From IMG/VR virus record IMGVR_UViG_3300037493_003491, positions 1 through 27,623 of that record: DNA of 27,623 nucleotides. One strand, written 5' to 3'. Below the pieces are notes generated by a model. That model ran no database searches and was not told the origin of the DNA. It saw only the letters and a list, made by a program, of their open reading frames with translations. The position numbers were made by a program, and so were the translations under genes. Shown here piece after piece: positions 2,234 through 12,327 of this stretch. The DNA is from a virus. The stretch's first letter is position 1. Every line of letters begins with the position of its first letter.

Positions 2234-2418
2234 TCTTTCCAGCTCCTCAACAATTCGCGTGCGTGTTCTAATATTCTAATCACGTTATCGGGATTGTCTC
2301 CGTGTTTCAAACATGACCTCAAATAATTATCAGCGTCGGTTATTGCCTGAAAATATTTGACCCCGTTCAACGCTTCTATTGCCTCTTCTTCATGCTCGAA
2401 TTCAATTGTTATTTTCAT
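2230..2418 (-). CDS. Small conserved phage protein, unknown function
   Basis: The 62-aa acidic, helical protein starts MKITIEFEHEEEAIEALNG and ends in ILEHARELLRSWKE. The N-terminal β-strand plus EEA helix pattern is common in small proteins found beside phage recombination genes, but I know no function. It overlaps both neighbours by 4 nt (ATGA): the ERF stop upstream and the 37-aa ORF downstream. It is therefore translated as part of the recombination operon. Confidence 0.75.
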   Translation of the reverse strand: MKITIEFEHEEEAIEALNGVKYFQAITDADNYLRSCLKHGDNPDNVIRILEHARELLRSWKE

Positions 2419-3074
2419 TTGTTAACTACTCCAAACGCGGCGTTAATGTTTGTTTGTGTAAATTCTTTCCCGACCAATTGTTCACACATTGCGTCTAGCA
2501 TATTGACTCGGTCTTTCACTTTCAGAAAGCCGCTCAGCTGCAAGATTTGCGTCGCGTTGCCTCTAACGAACGCATTATTAACGGTAGGTTTTTCGTTATT
2601 TTCAGCGGCTTTTTGAACCACAAGAGGCCGAGTAACCGGCGAAGAAACGATTTTTGAGGCGGTAGTTGCAACATAGCTTGTTCCTTTATTGCTGGCTTGA
2701 TTGCCGTCGTCCTCGTCCGGCGCAACACCGACTACGGACTGCAATGAATACCGTCGCAGGTAGGTCGCGCATGAACCAAACGCTTGTGGAGTGTTCTGTT
2801 GAGGCGTCATTGAGAACCCAGAGCGTATCCACTGCCCGCTGACGTGTAGCAACATAGTATCACAGCTGACACGCCCATCGTCGTTCCCAAGCGACTGGAT
2901 AACGCTCAGACCGTTATCTGTGAGAGGCTTGCGGCAAGCGTCCCAGACAGAGGCAAGGTCTGCATACTTGCTCTTGAAGTGAGGATTTACGCTATCTTTT
3001 TTTGCGTTCTCAATTGCGCCTTGAGCTTTGGCCAGTGCTGGCGCGAGCTTGTCGAGATTTTCTGTGTGAATCAT
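2415..3074 (-). CDS. erf: ERF-superfamily single-strand annealing protein
   Basis: The 219-aa protein carries the ERF core: NPHFKSKYADLASVWDACRKPL (31-52), then GLSVIQS, TMLLHVSGQWIRS, and the hallmark PQAFGSCATYLRRYSLQSVVGV with an acidic PDEDDGN end (about 96-125). ERF proteins bind ssDNA and anneal complementary strands in phage recombination and circularisation. The C-terminal third is more variable, as usual. AAGGAG lies 6 nt upstream of the ATG. It sits between a Gp157-like gene and ssb, with 4-nt overlaps, a combination often seen in siphophages. No exonuclease partner is visible in this window. Confidence 0.92.
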   Translation of the reverse strand: MIHTENLDKLAPALAKAQGAIENAKKDSVNPHFKSKYADLASVWDACRKPLTDNGLSVIQSLGNDDGRVSCDTMLLHVSGQWIRSGFSMTPQQNTPQAFGSCATYLRRYSLQSVVGVAPDEDDGNQASNKGTSYVATTASKIVSSPVTRPLVVQKAAENNEKPTVNNAFVRGNATQILQLSGFLKVKDRVNMLDAMCEQLVGKEFTQTNINAAFGVVNK

Positions 3075-3616
3075 GGCGACTCCTTAAATTTAATTTGCAA
3101 AGATTCTTTACGTTCATTGTGAGCAAACGTCAGCTCAATGCCGGCTTTTAAGTCCTCACGAACAACGTCTGTTTTCAAGACCCAGATCGTTTTTTGTTCA
3201 AGATATCGCTCAGGGACGACGCCGAGATATTCAACAGGAATGCAATTAGCGGAACTAAAAGCCTTTCTAATTTGGCAAACAAGGCTCGGAGCATTTATTT
3301 TTAAATGCATTTGTTTTTCTCGACCCCTGTAGCTGACGTGCGGTGTCGATTTTATCAAAAACAAACAATAGTTTTTGAGGCTCTCAACGCGTCGCTCCCA
3401 TTTTTGCGCTTGATGTTTGTACTCCTGGGCGCGAGCATCGAACTCTGCAGCGCGCATTTTGCATGAGTCCATGTACCCGATCAGGCTGTCAACCTTTACA
3501 TCAATTTCTTTCAGCGCCTCAAAATGTTGATGACAAGCCTCTTGTGTAATGTCCGGCATGTCATCGATTTCAGTTTCAAGCACGTTCAAGCCTTTCAACA
3601 AATCAAATAGACTCAT
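3071..3616 (-). CDS. Siphovirus Gp157-like protein
   Basis: The 181-aa protein begins MSLFDL and has a long helical, probably coiled-coil part (about 15-85) rich in Glu, Lys and Gln, followed by a compact C-terminal half with PVEYLGVVPERYLEQKTIWVLKTDVVREDLKAG. The V-P-x-Y/E followed by K-x-x-V-x-x-x-L-K-x-G pattern is typical of the Siphovirus Gp157 family. That family was named for a Streptococcus phage resistance-related protein and its biochemical role is not firmly known; it regularly sits beside ERF or RecT genes, as here. Start and stop both form ATGA overlaps with neighbours. Confidence 0.85.
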   Translation of the reverse strand: MSLFDLLKGLNVLETEIDDMPDITQEACHQHFEALKEIDVKVDSLIGYMDSCKMRAAEFDARAQEYKHQAQKWERRVESLKNYCLFLIKSTPHVSYRGREKQMHLKINAPSLVCQIRKAFSSANCIPVEYLGVVPERYLEQKTIWVLKTDVVREDLKAGIELTFAHNERKESLQIKFKESP

Positions 3617-4447: not shown

Positions 4448-5314
4448 ATGGCTCGTTTTGACGGTGGGTGGATTAAACTTCACAGAAAATTATTAAACGA
4501 AGAATGGTCGGAGTTGCTGGACATTCTTGCTAAAGGGTTGTTCCTTGAGCTGTTACTGATGGCAAATTATAAGGCATCGCGCTATTTAGAAGCGGGTGTT
4601 GTTCAAATATTGAACAGAGGTCAGGTGTTAACTAGCATAGTCGAGTTAAGTGCAAAAGCGAAAATGGAACGACCTGCCGTGAAAAAACGTTTAGACATTT
4701 TGGTTAAAACTGGAACAATTACCTACAAATCAAACAACCATGGAACGATCATAACTATCGTTAATTATTGCAAATATCAGAGTGACGATACAGCACACGA
4801 TACAGCACACGATACAGCACACGATACAGCACACGATACAGCACACGATACAGCACACGATACAGCACACGATACACATAGTGAAGAAGTAAAGAATCTA
4901 AAGAAGGTAAAGAAAGAAAAGAAGGTAATAACTATACCCTCGCTTGCGCTCGCGAGTGAGTGGTTAAATTTAGGTCAGTCATGGCTTGATTTCGCTTTGG
5001 GTGAAATGCCTTGGCAATCGAAGCAATCAAATTGGAATGCCGATTCTTTTGGCAGGGAGCTTGAACGCATCGGCAAGGTAATGGGCATTCAACCCAGTGG
5101 CCTATCGGAGATTTTGCAAAAGGTACGCACTGATGATTTTTGGCGCAGCAACGCGGCATCACCGTTTGGCCTTTTGAAAAGAAGTCATAAAAGCGGACTC
5201 AGAAAAATTGATAACATCATCGTTCGAATGAAAACCAAAAGCGACAGGGAGGCCCAAGGGCTTGCTGATCTTGTTAACAGCGGATATACGGGCGAGAATT
5301 TTATACCATTTTGA
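4448..5314 (+). CDS. Replication initiator (O-like, winged-helix)
   Basis: The 288-aa protein starts FDGGWIKLHRKLLNEEW, as in phage replisome-organiser/initiator proteins with an N-terminal winged-helix domain (about 1-110; AKMERPAVKKRLDILVKTGTI looks like the recognition part). Residues 114-141 are seven DTAH repeats encoded by 12-bp iterons, then a Lys/Glu-rich linker (about 145-160) and a C-terminal helical domain ending SGYTGENFIPF that may contact the helicase or its loader. By analogy with lambda O, the protein would bind the iterons inside its own gene to open the origin. AAGGG lies 8 nt upstream. It is followed by the probable helicase loader with a 16-bp gap. Confidence 0.8.
   Translation: MARFDGGWIKLHRKLLNEEWSELLDILAKGLFLELLLMANYKASRYLEAGVVQILNRGQVLTSIVELSAKAKMERPAVKKRLDILVKTGTITYKSNNHGTIITIVNYCKYQSDDTAHDTAHDTAHDTAHDTAHDTAHDTAHDTHSEEVKNLKKVKKEKKVITIPSLALASEWLNLGQSWLDFALGEMPWQSKQSNWNADSFGRELERIGKVMGIQPSGLSEILQKVRTDDFWRSNAASPFGLLKRSHKSGLRKIDNIIVRMKTKSDREAQGLADLVNSGYTGENFIPF
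4787..4876 (+). repeat. Seven 12-bp tandem iterons, probable replication origin
   Basis: GATACAGCACAC is repeated seven times without change from 4787 to 4870, followed by a half copy to 4876. The unit length is a multiple of three and keeps the initiator frame open (DTAH per repeat). Immediately downstream (about 4880-4930) is an A/G-rich, strand-asymmetric tract. Iterons within the initiator gene followed by an easily melted tract is the architecture of lambda-type origins. Confidence 0.8.
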
Positions 5315-6887: not shown

Positions 6888-6950
6888 ATGATTGACTTAG
6901 AGAATATACTTAAACTTGACGACGCAATAGACGAAGCGAGGCAGGGATGA
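6888..6950 (+). CDS. 20-aa micro-ORF coupled to the PAPS-reductase-like gene
   Basis: ATG at 6888 opens MIDLENILKL followed by DDAIDEARQG and a stop in an ATGA junction with the next gene. AAAGAAA lies upstream. It may be a small protein or simply a leader that delivers ribosomes to the next start, whose own ribosome site (AGGCAGGG) lies in its last codons. Confidence 0.35.
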   Translation: MIDLENILKLDDAIDEARQG

Positions 6951-7702
6951 TTGACAAAGATACTATAGTTGTGTGGTTTTCATGTGGCGCTGCCAGTGCT
7001 GTGGCGGCAAAAAAAACTATAGAGGTTTACGGTAATGATTATTTTATCAAAATTGTAAACAATCCAGTAAGCGAAGAACACCACGACAATCAAAGGTTTT
7101 TAAAGGACGTTGAAAAGTGGATCGGCGTATCGATTGAATCTTGTTACAATCCGAAGTATCCGCATAACTCGGCTCATGAAGTCTGGCAATCTCGCAAATA
7201 TATGTCTGGCATCAAAGGTGCGCCGTGTACTTTGGAACTAAAGAAAAAGGCTCGGCAACATTGGGAGGCAAACAATAAGTTTGATTTTCTTGTGTTGGGA
7301 TTTACGTTTGATGAGATAAAAAGGCATCAAAAGTTTATCCAGACTGAAAAATCTAACGTGTTACCAGTGTTGATAGATTTAAAACTAACAAAAAATGATT
7401 GCTTCGATATTTTATTGCGTGAAGGTTTAAAACTGCCAGAAATTTACAACCTTGGATATCCTAACGCCAATTGTATAGGTTGCGTTAAAGCAACGTCACC
7501 GACATATTGGAACCACGTTAGACGCCAGCACCCAGAACAATATGAGCAAAGATCAACACTAAGCCGAGAGTTAAATGTCAGACTCGTTAGGCATAAAGGC
7601 AAAAGAATTTTTTTAGATGAGTTGCCAGCAGACGCAATTGGATTGCCCATGAAAAATTTAAAGTCAGTTGAGTGCGGTATCTTTTGCGAAGAAAAGAAAT
7701 AA
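6947..7702 (+). CDS. PAPS-reductase-like ATP-pyrophosphatase family protein
   Basis: The 251-aa protein opens with VVWFSCGAASAVAA (8-21), a variant of the PP-loop that binds ATP in the adenine-nucleotide alpha-hydrolase fold. Further family marks are GAPCTLELKKKA (91-102), LVLGFTFDE (115-123) and GYPNANCIGCVKA (170-182). Four cysteines, C176, C179, C243 and C247, could hold a metal or Fe-S cluster. Such phage proteins are annotated as phosphoadenosine phosphosulfate reductases, but sulfate assimilation is not proven; relatives activate substrates by adenylation in tRNA or DNA thiolation. It is the last gene of the operon and its stop lies 5 bp from the stop of the convergent metallopeptidase gene. 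Confidence 0.8.
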   Translation: MIDKDTIVVWFSCGAASAVAAKKTIEVYGNDYFIKIVNNPVSEEHHDNQRFLKDVEKWIGVSIESCYNPKYPHNSAHEVWQSRKYMSGIKGAPCTLELKKKARQHWEANNKFDFLVLGFTFDEIKRHQKFIQTEKSNVLPVLIDLKLTKNDCFDILLREGLKLPEIYNLGYPNANCIGCVKATSPTYWNHVRRQHPEQYEQRSTLSRELNVRLVRHKGKRIFLDELPADAIGLPMKNLKSVECGIFCEEKK

Positions 7703-7707
7703 TTAAA

Positions 7708-8010
7708 TCAAGTAAAAAAGTGCGATAAACCTGTCTCAATTGCCAAGCAAATTTGCTCCTCTTTAGAAGCAGAGAGGCCTTGACTGGCACCACTGTAATA
7801 TAAAATTCCATGCGTCATTTCGTGCAACAAAACGGACTTCCAATCGCAGCCTTTTAAAAGATATATTTCTTTGCTCTCTGGATTAAAAGCTCCGAGCAAT
7901 TCTTGTTCATCATCCTCTAAATAGGGAACCACCCTCACGGAAATCTTTTGGCCTAAAATATCTACCGCGCGCGGCGGGTGCAAACGGTTAAACGGAGATC
8001 GCTTTGCCAT
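7708..8010 (-). CDS. Small HExxH zinc metallopeptidase-like protein
   Basis: The 100-aa protein carries LLHEMTHGILYYSG, with the HEMTH zinc motif at 63-67 and a downstream acidic stretch (EEQICLAIETGL) that could give the third ligand. The N-terminal half has β-strands (ILGQKISVRVVPYL and SKEIYLL). Small minimal zincin-like proteins of this kind are frequent in phages and have no known substrate. GGGAGGG lies 9-10 nt upstream of the ATG. Its start overlaps the phosphoesterase gene by 23 nt, so both are made from one transcript. Confidence 0.8.
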   Translation of the reverse strand: MAKRSPFNRLHPPRAVDILGQKISVRVVPYLEDDEQELLGAFNPESKEIYLLKGCDWKSVLLHEMTHGILYYSGASQGLSASKEEQICLAIETGLSHFFT

Positions 8011-8725
8011 ATACGATTACCCTCCCATTGACGATTGGCAACACATCGACAAATGTTTTGCCGTAGTTGTCGACGTGCAAGATAGCCAGCGCCTTCGTCC
8101 ATCCGGTCGGCGTTGGCTGATGAGCCGTTTGTTTTTCATCACTAACATGGCCGAGGCTAATAGCGTAATTAGTACCGTCAAACACATGTTGTACCCTGTG
8201 TGTGTGGCCGCTAATAGTGTTGCGTCGATACTTAGCCAGGTTAGTCGTGGCAACGTGCTGGTTGAAATAAAAACCGTGCATCAAAGTACAATCGCCAATG
8301 ACGCAAGAATCCCATTTTGTATACTTATGCCACACCCATTTTTTATTTGTTGTCTCGTTTCTTATCTTGATTTTTAACAGCGTTGGCCAGTCTGGAACTA
8401 GACCATGCAACTCTCGGCAATTGCGAGAAATGTATCTGCTCAATCTATATTCATGATTGCCTTCTAACAAATGGACCTGTGCGCCTGATTTCAAATGACT
8501 TGCCCAAATCGTTAGAATCTTATTCCAATCATCGATATCGTCAGACAACATATTCTTGCGCTCTGGATCTTTATCGTAACTAGATATCTGAAAACAATCT
8601 AACCCATCGCCCAACTGCACTAAGCCGTCGGGGTTTATTTCTTTGATGATTTTGGTGATTAGTTTGGTTGTTGTAACACAGTGGAATGGAATATGCACAT
8701 CAGGAATCACAAGGTAAGTTTTCAA
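7988..8725 (-). CDS. Calcineurin-like metallophosphoesterase
   Basis: The 245-aa protein has the full set of metal-binding motifs in order: PDVH (8-11), GDGLD (39-43), GNHE (89-92), LMHG (148-151) and GHTH (173-176). It would hydrolyse a phosphoester with two metal ions; the substrate (nucleotide, DNA end or protein) cannot be told. I chose the TTG at 8725 because GGAGGT lies 7 nt upstream and the protein begins right at the first β-strand, MKTYLVIPDVH; an upstream TTG at 8743 would place the ribosome site inside the gene. With the metallopeptidase it forms a two-gene minus island flanked by plus-strand operons. Confidence 0.88.
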   Translation of the reverse strand: MKTYLVIPDVHIPFHCVTTTKLITKIIKEINPDGLVQLGDGLDCFQISSYDKDPERKNMLSDDIDDWNKILTIWASHLKSGAQVHLLEGNHEYRLSRYISRNCRELHGLVPDWPTLLKIKIRNETTNKKWVWHKYTKWDSCVIGDCTLMHGFYFNQHVATTNLAKYRRNTISGHTHRVQHVFDGTNYAISLGHVSDEKQTAHQPTPTGWTKALAILHVDNYGKTFVDVLPIVNGRVIVYGKAISV

Positions 8726-8755
8726 TCGGTCACCTCCAAGCAATGTGTTTTATCA

Positions 8756-8822: not shown

Positions 8823-8898
8823 AGTATTATTATTAAAATCATCGCGCCTGTTGTGCAGGCAATCATTGGTCGTTGAGCGACGAAGGATGGATGTTCAC

Positions 8899-9330
8899 AT
8901 GAAGCAAAAAGGCGGCGTCAGAGAAGGCGCAGGTCGACCCGTAAAGGTGTTCGACTGGGAAAAAATCAAGCAATATGCCTACATTCAATGTACGCAAGTT
9001 GAAATCACTTACCTGTTAGATTGCGATATGAATACGCTCAATGCCGCTTGCAAAAGAGAACAAGGCGTTGATTTTTCAGATTTTTATAAAATTAATGCCG
9101 AGGGAGGCAAAGCGTCGTTACGTCGTCAGATGTTTAAAACGGCGATGAGCGGCAGCGTTCCCATGATGATTTGGTTGTCAAAAAACTACATGAACATGAA
9201 AGAAAATTGGTTGTTGCCTGAAAGCATCGCGCCGATCGTCATGGCCTACACTCCCAACGTCAAAACGTTGCCCGTCGACGACGACGCAGCGAACGATTCA
9301 AACACTATAACCATCGAGAGTGAGCCGTGA
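8899..9330 (+). CDS. terS: Terminase small subunit
   Basis: The 143-aa protein starts MKQKGGVREGAGRPVKVFDWEK. The GGxREGAGRP motif at the N-terminus is typical of phage small terminase subunits, followed by a helix-turn-helix-like region (VEITYLLDCDMNTLNAACKREQG) that would bind the packaging site, and an oligomerisation helix. AAGGATGG lies about 8 nt upstream of the ATG at 8899; an ATG at 8887 has its ribosome site too close. Its last codons (from about 9240) already show the GACG/CGTC-rich composition of the following genes. It overlaps the ParB-like gene by 4 nt (GTGA). Confidence 0.82.
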   Translation: MKQKGGVREGAGRPVKVFDWEKIKQYAYIQCTQVEITYLLDCDMNTLNAACKREQGVDFSDFYKINAEGGKASLRRQMFKTAMSGSVPMMIWLSKNYMNMKENWLLPESIAPIVMAYTPNVKTLPVDDDAANDSNTITIESEP

Positions 9331-9863
9331 GCAAGATGATAGACACGACAAAAAAATATCGCGACATAGACACGTTGAAGTTTGACCCTGCGAACGCACG
9401 CGTGCACGATGAACGCAACATTCAAGCGATCGTCGACAGTCTAACGATGAACGGACAACGTAAACCAGTGGTCATATACTCGGACATGATCGTCGCTGGC
9501 AACGGAACAGTGGCGGCGGCGAAACGTCTCGGTTGGACCGAAATATGGGTCAACGACGACCCGTTCGACTCGTTAGACGCTGCGAAAGCGTACGCCGTTC
9601 AAGACAATCAAACTGCGGCTCTCGCGTCGTGGAACGACGATCAATTGGACGACACGTTGACCGATTTAGTGGAAAAAGGTTGGATTTTGAAAAGCCTCGG
9701 TTTCGACAAAATGCCAGGCGCCCTCGAACCTGATGAAAACGAAGACAAAAAGGTCAAAGAATTAGACGAATTTTGCATGTACGTTACGTGTGCAAACGAA
9801 ACTGATTTGCGTGATTTGTTCGAAGAATTAACGTCACGAGGCATAGAGGTTAAATTGACATGA
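9327..9863 (+). CDS. ParB-like (ParB/Srx fold) protein
   Basis: The 178-aa protein has the N-terminal ParB-type domain: LKFDPANARVHDERNIQAI (17-35), NGQRKPVVIY (42-51), AGNGTVAAAKRLGW (57-70) and AYAVQDNQTA. In true ParB this fold binds CTP; stand-alone phage versions lie beside DNA methylases and other DNA-modifying enzymes and near terminases. There is no obvious partition-type HTH, and the acidic C-terminus (about 125-178) is of unknown function. It starts with GTG in a GTGA overlap with terS and overlaps the ABC-GNAT gene in ATGA, forming a tight cassette. The whole gene lies in the GACG/CGTC-rich island. Confidence 0.82.
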   Translation: MSKMIDTTKKYRDIDTLKFDPANARVHDERNIQAIVDSLTMNGQRKPVVIYSDMIVAGNGTVAAAKRLGWTEIWVNDDPFDSLDAAKAYAVQDNQTAALASWNDDQLDDTLTDLVEKGWILKSLGFDKMPGALEPDENEDKKVKELDEFCMYVTCANETDLRDLFEELTSRGIEVKLT

Positions 9864-10975
9864 TGAAAACGTACACAGTTCATTTGAAATCAGACCCGTC
9901 AACAACGTTCATGTCGACCAAAGCAGCGCAGTCGATGGACATCGACGTGACGAAAAAACTTGCACACGATTTGTCCGTCACAGCAGACGTCGTAACGTCG
10001 TACAACGTCGGGTTAATTGTCGGCAATTCGGGGTCAGGTAAAACGACGTTAACACGTCAAATATACGGTGACGATTGTTTCACGTCGTCGTTAGACGCGA
10101 CACGACCGATCATAGACCAGTTTCCTGACGACATGACGTACGACGACCGCGCGAACATATTGAACGCGATCGGGTTGAGTCAGGTCGTGTGTTGGATACG
10201 CCCTGTCGCGACGTTGTCCAACGGTCAGAAGTTTCGTGCCGAGGCAGCCCTGAAAATAGCGCACGCTCGCGACGGCGAAACCATTTGCATCGACGAATGG
10301 ACGTCCGTGGTCGACCGCACCGTTGCAAAAGTCATGTCGCACGCATTGCAAAAATCAGCACGTAAATTCAACAAACGTTTCGTTTTGTGTTCGTGTCACG
10401 ACGACGTTATCGAGTGGTTACAACCTGATTGGGTGATCGATTGTAATAAACAAACGTACGACGACCGGAGGTCGCTTCGGCGCGAGCGCACGGAACGACT
10501 CGACTTCGAAATCAGGGAAGTCCACCGATCGACGTGGCGCATGTTTGCACGTTATCACTATTTGAGCGATCGACTGCCAGGCGGAACGTTGCACACGTTC
10601 GGTTTGTTTCACGACGACCAACAGATAGGGTTTCAATGTTTCGCCAATTACGTGCCAACGAAAAAGGGTTCGAAGAACATGATCTATCACTCAAACCGTA
10701 CGGTCATCCATCCTGACTACGTCGGTTTGGGGTTAGGCATAAAAATCATCGACGAAACGTCGAAGTTGATGAAAAAAATGCACACTTTTAGAATCATGGC
10801 TAAATTCAGCAGTTTGCCTGTTTACAAATCGATGATTAAAAATTCGTCATGGAAGTTGTTGAACGCTCAAACAGAAACAAGCAAACCAACAGGCACGCTT
10901 AGACGCTCGCGTAACGCGACGACACGTAACAAAGTCAAATGGTATTCGTTTGAATACGTCGACGTGTCGTCGTGA
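9860..10975 (+). CDS. ABC-type ATPase fused to a GNAT-like domain
   Basis: The 371-aa protein has two parts. Residues 1-200 are an ABC ATPase: Walker A GNSGSGKT (55-62), signature LSNGQ (119-123) followed by FRAEAALKIA, Walker B TICIDEW (141-147) and switch His in CSCH (H180). It is soluble, without membrane helices. Residues about 215-371 resemble a GNAT acyltransferase: STWRMFARYHYLSDRLPGG (224-242), β-strands THTFGLF and IGFQCF, then RTVIHPDYVGLGLG (280-293), which matches the acyl-CoA pyrophosphate-binding motif A. Phage Mu Mom, which modifies adenine in DNA, has a GNAT fold, so a Mom-like role powered or targeted by the ATPase is possible; this is inference. It overlaps ParB (ATGA) and terL (GTGA). 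Confidence 0.78.
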   Translation: MMKTYTVHLKSDPSTTFMSTKAAQSMDIDVTKKLAHDLSVTADVVTSYNVGLIVGNSGSGKTTLTRQIYGDDCFTSSLDATRPIIDQFPDDMTYDDRANILNAIGLSQVVCWIRPVATLSNGQKFRAEAALKIAHARDGETICIDEWTSVVDRTVAKVMSHALQKSARKFNKRFVLCSCHDDVIEWLQPDWVIDCNKQTYDDRRSLRRERTERLDFEIREVHRSTWRMFARYHYLSDRLPGGTLHTFGLFHDDQQIGFQCFANYVPTKKGSKNMIYHSNRTVIHPDYVGLGLGIKIIDETSKLMKKMHTFRIMAKFSSLPVYKSMIKNSSWKLLNAQTETSKPTGTLRRSRNATTRNKVKWYSFEYVDVSS

Positions 10976-12327
10976 TAGGATCGACGCCCACGCTCGCTGA
11001 GTTCAATCCTAACATCATACCGTTTCAATCGCGTGTGATAAACGACCTGACGACGTACGACTACAGTTTGGGGTCACACGAGGTTCTCCTAAGTGGGTCA
11101 GTCGGAAGCGCAAAATCTATACTCATGGCACATATTATAATCAGGCATTGTTTGGAAAACAATCGTGCACGTTTTTTAATCGGTCGTCGCGCTCTCCCAG
11201 ATTTAAAAGACACGTTGTACGCCAAGATACTGGAACACCTCGAATCGGTCGACTCACGTTATTATCGCGTGTGGGCTAACACGGGAAAAATATGGTTCGT
11301 CAACGGTTCGGAAATCATATCTAAGTCGTGGGCAGATAAACGATACAGCAAACTTAGATCGCTTGAATTGTCGGGCGCAGCTATCGAGGAGTTGACGGAA
11401 AACAAAGGCGACGACGAACAAGCGTACCACGAAATCAAGATGCGCGTCGGTCGACTACCGCACGTCAAGTGTCCGATCATGATATCTGCGACGAACCCCG
11501 ACAGTCCGTCTCATTGGGCTTATAAACATTTCATCACGCCGAACAGTGGCGGAGAAAAACACGCGACTCGTCATGTTTATTATTCGCGCACTGAAGACAA
11601 TCCTTTTCTGCCGCCTCAATATATTCAACAACTTAAAAACGACCTCGATCCGAAACGTGCAAAAAGAATGCTGTACGGAGAATGGATCGAGATACAAGAC
11701 GAAGTTATCTATTACGCATATGATAGTGCGCTTCAATACTCTAAGAAACCATGGACGCCTCGCCCTGAAACACCTATCATGATTAGCTTTGACTTTAACA
11801 TCGGTGACGGCAAGCCATTGAGCGCCTGTGCTATTGCTTATGAGGATGGAATATTTCACGTCTTTGCTGAGGTCATTATCGAAGGCGCAAGAACAGAAGA
11901 GGCTTGTCAGGAATTTTATGACCGAGGTATCATCGTCCCAGGCAAGCACTATGAGCTATACGGTGACGCCTCTGGCAAGGCTAGGCATACATCGTCCACA
12001 AGGTCAGACTATGAAATCATCAAAGAATCATTTGACCGCAACGGGATCAGCTACAGGTATTGCGTCCCGCTGGCCAACCCTGCAATTAGGACACGCCACA
12101 ATACCATCAACGCCTACTCTCGCAACGCTCTCGGACAAACCAGACTGTTTATCCACAACTGCCCAACAATTGATGAAGCCTTGAGGCTGACAGCTTTTAA
12201 AAAAGGTGGTAACATAATCGAAGATGATTCAAAAAAATATCAGCACGTTGGGACAGCGCTAGGCTATTGTCTGGTTAGAAAATTAGCCGATCAAGAACGC
12301 GGGGTAACTCGTTCTATTATATTGTAA
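10972..12327 (+). CDS. terL: Terminase large subunit
   Basis: The 451-aa protein has the packaging ATPase with Walker A SGSVGSAKS (41-49), Walker B AAIEE (136-140) and coupling motif SATNPD (172-177). The RNase H-like nuclease follows, with FDFN (D274), YGDASG (D332) and a C-terminal YQHVGTALGY region. It drives DNA into the prohead and cuts concatemers. It starts with GTG in an overlap with the ABC-GNAT gene; length is normal. Base composition changes inside the gene near 11600 (codon ~210), between the ATPase and nuclease domains, which suggests a recombinant gene. The portal follows after 10 bp. Confidence 0.95.
   Translation: MIGSTPTLAEFNPNIIPFQSRVINDLTTYDYSLGSHEVLLSGSVGSAKSILMAHIIIRHCLENNRARFLIGRRALPDLKDTLYAKILEHLESVDSRYYRVWANTGKIWFVNGSEIISKSWADKRYSKLRSLELSGAAIEELTENKGDDEQAYHEIKMRVGRLPHVKCPIMISATNPDSPSHWAYKHFITPNSGGEKHATRHVYYSRTEDNPFLPPQYIQQLKNDLDPKRAKRMLYGEWIEIQDEVIYYAYDSALQYSKKPWTPRPETPIMISFDFNIGDGKPLSACAIAYEDGIFHVFAEVIIEGARTEEACQEFYDRGIIVPGKHYELYGDASGKARHTSSTRSDYEIIKESFDRNGISYRYCVPLANPAIRTRHNTINAYSRNALGQTRLFIHNCPTIDEALRLTAFKKGGNIIEDDSKKYQHVGTALGYCLVRKLADQERGVTRSIIL

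Follow-up and report, generated by a model that had tools for sequence, protein, structure and literature searches.

Phage proteins that combine an ABC ATPase with a GNAT domain are known as the "ABC ATPase-GNAT" family, with QAX98348.1 as the exemplar; acylation of a DNA base has been predicted for them (PMC7824862, citing Iyer et al. 2013). No biochemical test of the predicted DNA acylation was found for this family in the literature searched. The examined text of PMC7824862 assigns QAX98348.1 to Tenacibaculum phage pT24; the accession is gene 2 of Aeromonas phage AsFcp_2. For dnaX, the accessible text of PMC5009743 describes transcript slippage that makes the short product in Thermus, as well as a reversal of the polarity of the frameshift. 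Frame transitions of ABC transporters are listed as translational coupling in the accessible text of PMC3711429.

The window (the whole stretch of DNA that was analysed; 27,623-base virus record IMGVR_UViG_3300037493_003491) encodes a member of the ABC ATPase-GNAT family, as judged by its homology to QAX98348.1 across both domains (31% identity, E=2e-29, residues 43–371, 89% of the length); the domain order is the same. Because of this homology, the DNA modification suggested in the original prediction is the one already published for the family. The new form of anti-restriction system that it envisaged is, as a gene pair, of a familiar kind: acylation was predicted before, according to the examined part of PMC7824862, and a ParB-like ORF lies directly upstream of the ABC-GNAT gene in 162 of 192 testable non-redundant loci. 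What is apparently new here is the recoding signal in the ABC-GNAT gene, which the original prediction had overlooked. The examined text of PMC7824862 mentions neither a ParB partner nor a frameshift, and the ABC-GNAT frameshift is also absent from the searchable text of PMC5009743 and PMC3711429; an earlier mention in Iyer et al. 2013 is possible.

Homologues were found in 72 phage records, and candidates numbered at least 595 among viral and 469 among genome sequences, which is far beyond a chance match. Among isolates, Pasteurella phage Pmp13 (51%) and Leptospira phages LE3/LE4 (47%) come closest. Several variants were observed within the family. In Tenacibaculum phage pT24, a single in-frame TGA inside the GNAT domain (positions 4730–4732 of the locus) breaks the ABC-GNAT frame, which is annotated as two genes in the record; the copy may be dead, the stop may be an error, or it may be read through. 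A similar single stop is present in one further locus (L099). In a Porphyromonas phage and a Pseudomonas phage (L052, 4119–4592, and L057, 4074–4691), the end of ABC-GNAT overlaps with a gene for a PurN-like formyltransferase, a hint that the modification involves a formyl group or an additional step. Pseudomonas phage Nican01 (2312–4842) carries ParB, ABC, and then a separate GNAT-like gene annotated as ABC ATP-binding, and some Klebsiella phages gave ABC-only matches with a ParB neighbour.

Gene order and the ParB-like partner

Four genes on the plus strand of the window form a chain of 4-nt overlaps, as read from the sequence. These are a TerS-like gene (small terminase; 8851–9330; phrog_309, E=6.7e-6), a ParB/Srx-like gene of 178 aa with a GTG start (9327–9863; phrog_620, E=1.3e-24), the ABC ATPase-GNAT fusion gene with a zero-frame product of 371 aa (9860–10975; phrog_11143, E=3.5e-76, along with alignment and an AlphaFold2 model), and TerL (large terminase; 10972–12327; PF04466, E=9.3e-18). 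The TerS-like and ParB-like genes overlap by GTGA, and so do the fusion gene and TerL. Both ORFs between the terminase genes are real and sandwiched by 4-nt overlaps, as had been noticed initially, with the TerS call itself being weak. Homologues of the TerS-like ORF sit downstream of ABC-GNAT in relatives, where the order is ParB, ABC-GNAT, TerS, and TerL, or the pair lies far from the terminase. Among the relatives compared, no second locus with TerS upstream of the ParB gene was found. The terminase-operon position was dropped as a functional clue, the TerS-ParB order being unique to the window in this comparison. The earlier suggestion that the pair acts during packaging does not agree with relatives that carry it upstream of TerS-TerL or far away, and we regard such packaging-linked action as improbable.

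Just ahead of the terminase region, on the opposite strand, the window carries a PAPS-reductase-like gene (6947–7702; phrog_424, E=1e-43) and a metallophosphoesterase gene (7988–8743). An Erf-like annealing protein and a Mu Gam-like end-protection gene are encoded on the minus strand at 2415–3616.

On a ParB/Srx assignment of the gene at 9327–9863, the models disagree: its protein matched PHROG ParB-like families (E=1e-24), but scored 12.3 bits against Pfam ParB_N, under the cut-off of 26.3. The protein also matched phrog_498 (DNA methyltransferase N-terminal domain; E=3.1e-24) and the N-terminal region of PADLOC MTase_II (E=1.6e-9); its ParB domain is of the type that phage DNA methyltransferases carry N-terminally. 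The commonest overlap between the ParB-like gene, the usual partner, and ABC-GNAT among relatives is 22 nt. The ParB-like protein may act as a specificity or loading protein which positions ABC-GNAT on DNA. In Microbacterium phage Appa (1969–3121 of locus L302), a ParB-like gene and a Mom gene overlap over 8 nt; phage acyltransferases that modify bases may thus have ParB partners in general.

Some GNATs are toxins, and a two-gene overlapping operon would also suit a toxin–antitoxin pair with the GNAT as the toxin and the ParB-like protein as the antitoxin. We find this hardly credible, since the GNAT is fused to an ABC ATPase, its near-universal partner has a ParB fold rather than that of an antitoxin, lytic and temperate phages alike carry the pair next to late or replication genes, and no toxin match was obtained in PADLOC.

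The two domains and the probable substrate

The ABC ATPase domain occupies about residues 1–200 (9860–10459, plus strand), as defined by alignment, AlphaFold2, and Foldseek. It contains Walker A (55–62), the signature (119–123), Walker B (141–146), the D-loop (149–152), and the H-loop (H180). The residues G55–K61, LSNGQ (119–123), D145–E146, D152, and H180 show little or no variation in 47 relatives; with the matching fold, these motifs identify an ABC ATPase and confirm that the complete set named at the outset is present in one protein. The GNAT acyltransferase domain spans about residues 213–369 (10496–10966, plus strand; alignment, AlphaFold2, Foldseek, and Pfam) and contains YHYL (232–235), R280, the acyl-CoA motif PDYVGLGLG (285–293), and W331. 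It belongs to the GNAT superfamily by its fold and by this motif, which corresponds to (Q/R)xxGxG/A.

AlphaFold2 modelled the whole 371-aa protein with pLDDT 91 and pTM 0.85. The GNAT domain was also modelled and searched alone (pLDDT 89, pTM 0.82) because the whole-chain Foldseek search was swamped by ABC transporters. The N-terminal half resembled ABC ATPases, and the GNAT half matched solved GNATs with E of about 3e-6. The Pfam family Acetyltransf_7 was matched by 63 of 78 relatives. Structure prediction thus bore out the GNAT-like C-terminal domain that had been suspected from the sequence.

The original prediction also compared this domain with Mom, the DNA modifier of phage Mu. Profile comparison with Mom by hhalign gave a probability of 33%, and the score against the Mom family PF25680 was 15.9 bits with a cut-off of 27.1; this family was touched weakly by only 8 of 78 relatives. 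When the GNAT domain was compared with PDB structures in Foldseek, the 50 best matches did not include the Mom crystal structure 8bv8. Mom homology was abandoned as direct proof, since none of BLASTP, hhalign, Pfam, and Foldseek assigned the domain to the Mom family. It is a canonical GNAT by sequence and fold and not a Mom-family member. Mom and the window protein share a GNAT fold, the HY motif, and an Arg in the beta-4 region; Mom also occupies the equivalent locus in sister phages and can pair with ParB. Unlike Mom, the window GNAT is fused to an ABC ATPase and has an acyl-CoA loop, PDYxGxGxG, that is missing from Mom.

The slot between the DNA polymerase and lysis genes of Enterococcus phages contains Mom in fHoEfa04 and ABC-GNAT in 9184. 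Behind two tail genes of Porphyromonas phages, Mom is found in 381OKJP and ABC-GNAT in KCOM2797. These swaps, together with the ParB-Mom pair of Appa, support a Mom-type function. With the published prediction, they favour the acyltransferase part of the Mom-like modifier proposed earlier; membership in the Mom family is the part that failed. As judged from sequence comparisons, the GNAT domain is at present best read as a DNA-modifying acyltransferase, and a DNA base as its substrate is moderately probable. As predicted for the family, ABC-GNAT would acylate a base in phage DNA and so allow escape from host restriction.

Acetylation of a protein, such as the host RNA polymerase, a nucleoid protein, a restriction enzyme, or a virion protein, with ParB and ABC steering the enzyme and DNA not being the substrate, is possible but rather unlikely. 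The best fold matches in Foldseek were protein N-acetyltransferases such as RimI, NAA60, and Ard1, the acyl-CoA motif is canonical, and the examined text of PMC7824862 reports phage GNATs acetylating host RNA polymerase. The constant ParB partner, however, is of a type also fused to DNA methyltransferases, and Mom occupies equivalent loci in sister phages, both of which speak for DNA. Foldseek also matched the tRNA cytidine acetyltransferase TmcA (PDB 2zpa), which likewise carries a P-loop ATPase and a GNAT in one chain and targets a nucleobase. Its ATPase is, however, of the helicase type and its substrate is RNA; its resemblance to the window protein is that of a fold match.

The interdomain linker and the shifted reading frame

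Pairing of a Shine-Dalgarno (SD) sequence behind a CUU codon in the P site promotes +1 slippage. The ABC/GNAT linker of the window reads CGG AGG TCG CTT CGG (10466–10480). An internal SD, CGGAGG, lies in frame as the codons CGG AGG (10466–10471, plus strand) in the same layout as AGGGGG of E. coli prfB, and a CTT codon (10475–10477) follows it by exactly 3 nt, where a +1 slip to TTC with one base skipped is predicted. The in-frame SD located exactly 3 nt 5' of CUU (10466–10477) is that of an RF2-type cassette. The UGA of such cassettes is absent from the A site, CTT being followed by CGG; since this is a sense codon, the slippage efficiency may be low. The pattern GGAGGNNNCTT occurs once within the window, at the linker, which proves nothing by itself because 0.47 occurrences are expected over 27 kb.

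Among the fused members, CGG AGG TNN CTT in the linker is near-universal in the clade of the window. In-frame NGG AGG was present in 116 of 189 non-redundant fused loci, with CTT 3 nt later in 84 and GTT in 22; CTT accounts for 11% of leucine codons elsewhere in ABC-GNAT genes. The linkers of 97 of 188 non-redundant fused relatives contained GGRGG-N3-CTT vs. an expectation of 0.14 based on the remainder of the loci, and 120 of 188 contained GGRGG-N3 with CTT or GTT vs. 0.34 expected; these counts and the frame counts below ignore the kinship of the relatives, which overstates significance, and are to be read as effect sizes. The SD-N3-CTT motif was in frame every time and encoded 51 different pentapeptides, which indicates that the nucleotides are conserved and not the protein. 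No stable RNA fold beyond that of shuffled sequences was found downstream of the shift site in the window (z=0.67); to our knowledge, the RF2 frameshift needs no downstream RNA structure. An internal translation start at the SD was rejected, as ATG or GTG was located 4–12 nt downstream in only 2 of 120 SD loci and a TTG past the SD was in the wrong frame wherever present.

Slippage at CTT would join 206 ABC residues to a +1-frame tail of 28 aa, GASARNDSTSKSGKSTDRRGACLHVITI (10479–10562, plus strand), which overlaps the start of the GNAT domain. A TGA in the +1 frame, inside the YHYL-S codons (10563–10565), would end the predicted product at 234 aa.

From the start of the GNAT domain to HYL, the +1 frame was open in 185 of 185 fused loci vs. 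111 expected, and the -1 frame was open over this stretch in 38 vs. 54 expected, where the expectation was obtained by redrawing codons synonymously from each gene's own usage. In a later-fetched set of 58 loci, at most 85% identical to any earlier locus, the +1 frame was open in all 58 (35.9 expected), and SD-N3-CTT/GTT was found in 45. When 18-codon windows were moved along the gene, the +1 frame was open in about 30–60% of loci, climbing near the linker, and reached 100% only between the linker and HYL. The +1 stop was found at a fixed place, formed by the Leu codon that follows HY together with its successor, in 186 of 188 relatives vs. 72.3 expected. Past the shift site, the +1 frame is kept by selection, as in RF2-type cassettes, and both frames of this stretch are under selection.

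The motif could instead only pause ribosomes so that ABC folds before GNAT, with the frameshift product unused. SD sequences within genes can pause ribosomes, the motif is located exactly at the domain boundary, and the A-site codon is a sense one. Pausing leaves unexplained, however, the open +1 frame with its selected stop in 186 of 188 relatives, as well as the A10/T10 runs and the 38 loci described below, in which GNAT is reached by a -1 shift alone; we consider it doubtful. In the frameshifting that we favour, most ribosomes would read through and make the 371-aa fusion, and some, held by the SD at CGGAGG with peptidyl-tRNA-Leu on CUU 3 nt downstream, would slip by +1 and make the 234-aa ABC-only protein ending at 10563–10565. 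Programmed decoding of the window gene into two products is likely on this evidence.

Frame changes in other lineages and comparison with known recoding systems

The first clue to recoding came from several relatives in which ABC and GNAT are encoded in different frames. According to domain models over 299 loci, 239 were fused, 55 had GNAT at -1, and one was a +1 case; the break in this single case lay inside the ABC domain and not in the linker. After the removal of near-copies, the -1 class comprised 38 loci, with no +1 at the linker; its prevalence is biased because one scan was seeded with -1 members. A canonical in-frame X XXY YYZ heptamer (T7, T9, A9, or AAATTTT) was present in the linker of 27 of the 38 loci, and 28 of the 38 had no ATG, GTG, or TTG able to start the whole GNAT. 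The class includes the Firmicute isolates P335, Javan, Oenococcus, and Enterococcus 9184.

Several breaks fall in A9/T9 runs of metagenome contigs, as would be expected if they were homopolymer sequencing or assembly errors and the split members were pseudogenes. This explanation is very unlikely: GNAT is at -1 in every linker break and never at +1, isolates of several hosts (P335, Javan prophages, Oenococcus, and Enterococcus 9184) break without long runs, and the GNAT reading frames are intact and conserved.

Slippery runs of constant length were found in two further clades. In one of them, all 25 members carry a run of exactly ten A; a -1 slip there would meet a stop after one codon in 24 of the 25, and a +1 slip would meet the HYL stop in all 25. 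In the other, the run is exactly ten T in all 8 members. Such runs are similar to what the accessible text of PMC5009743 describes for Thermus dnaX. One locus (L032, 5580–5603) is near-identical to another (L033), but has a zero-frame TAA just ahead of the A run, which should block a -1 shift; it may be an inactive copy. A FastTree phylogeny of the ABC domains indicated about 10 polarity changes, at least four of them on well-supported branches.

Programmed decoding into two products is thus very probable for the ABC-GNAT family as a whole, to the extent that comparative data can indicate it, and the family apparently makes both ABC-only and ABC-GNAT proteins, like dnaX. The ABC-only protein would join the fusion in mixed ABC assemblies in which only some subunits carry the transferase, likened to those of tau and gamma of dnaX. 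With the dimerisation surface of ABC present in both products, they could combine into mixed complexes in which the number of transferase arms is fixed. That the ParB/ABC-GNAT pair acylates DNA and is decoded in two ways, into the fusion and an ABC-only protein, appears reasonably probable. Slightly favoured, with less confidence, is the broader proposal that frameshifting at one domain boundary sets the ratio of ABC-only to ABC-acyltransferase protein throughout the family, that the RF2-type cassette was swapped more than once for A10/T10 runs or -1 sites with both products kept, and that the products form a ParB-loaded mixed clamp.

If true, such a clamp with few acyltransferase arms would be a new design of a nucleobase-modifying machine, and the family would offer a large collection of natural RF2-like +1 sites in genes other than prfB, together with evolutionary swaps between ribosomal frameshifting and slippage. 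The frameshift accounts for the many members whose annotation shows split genes, or an "ABC transporter" together with a "hypothetical" protein; it further predicts that ATPase and acyltransferase form a heteromeric complex. The "hypothetical" pair of hundreds of phages and prophages becomes a testable system, for which the frameshift offers a precise molecular handle in the form of a few synonymous codon choices. The pair points phage biologists to an uncharacterised, predicted DNA base modification.

Among known recoding systems, the register of the window cassette matches that of prfB (RF2), in which the E. coli sequence AGG GGG TAT CTT TGA shows the SD 3 nt 5' of CUU. In prfB, however, CUU is followed by UGA and the slip makes the only functional product, whereas here a sense codon follows, and the slip would give a shorter product, one of two. 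The resemblance to dnaX tau/gamma, as given in the accessible text of PMC5009743, lies in one gene that encodes two forms of an ATPase, of which only one has the C-terminal module, in reversible polarity, in ribosomal or transcriptional slippage depending on the lineage, and in an A run accompanied by stops in the other frames. Unlike in dnaX, as far as that text describes it, the main signal of the ABC-GNAT genes is of the RF2-type +1 kind, and the genes are unrelated beyond the ATPase.
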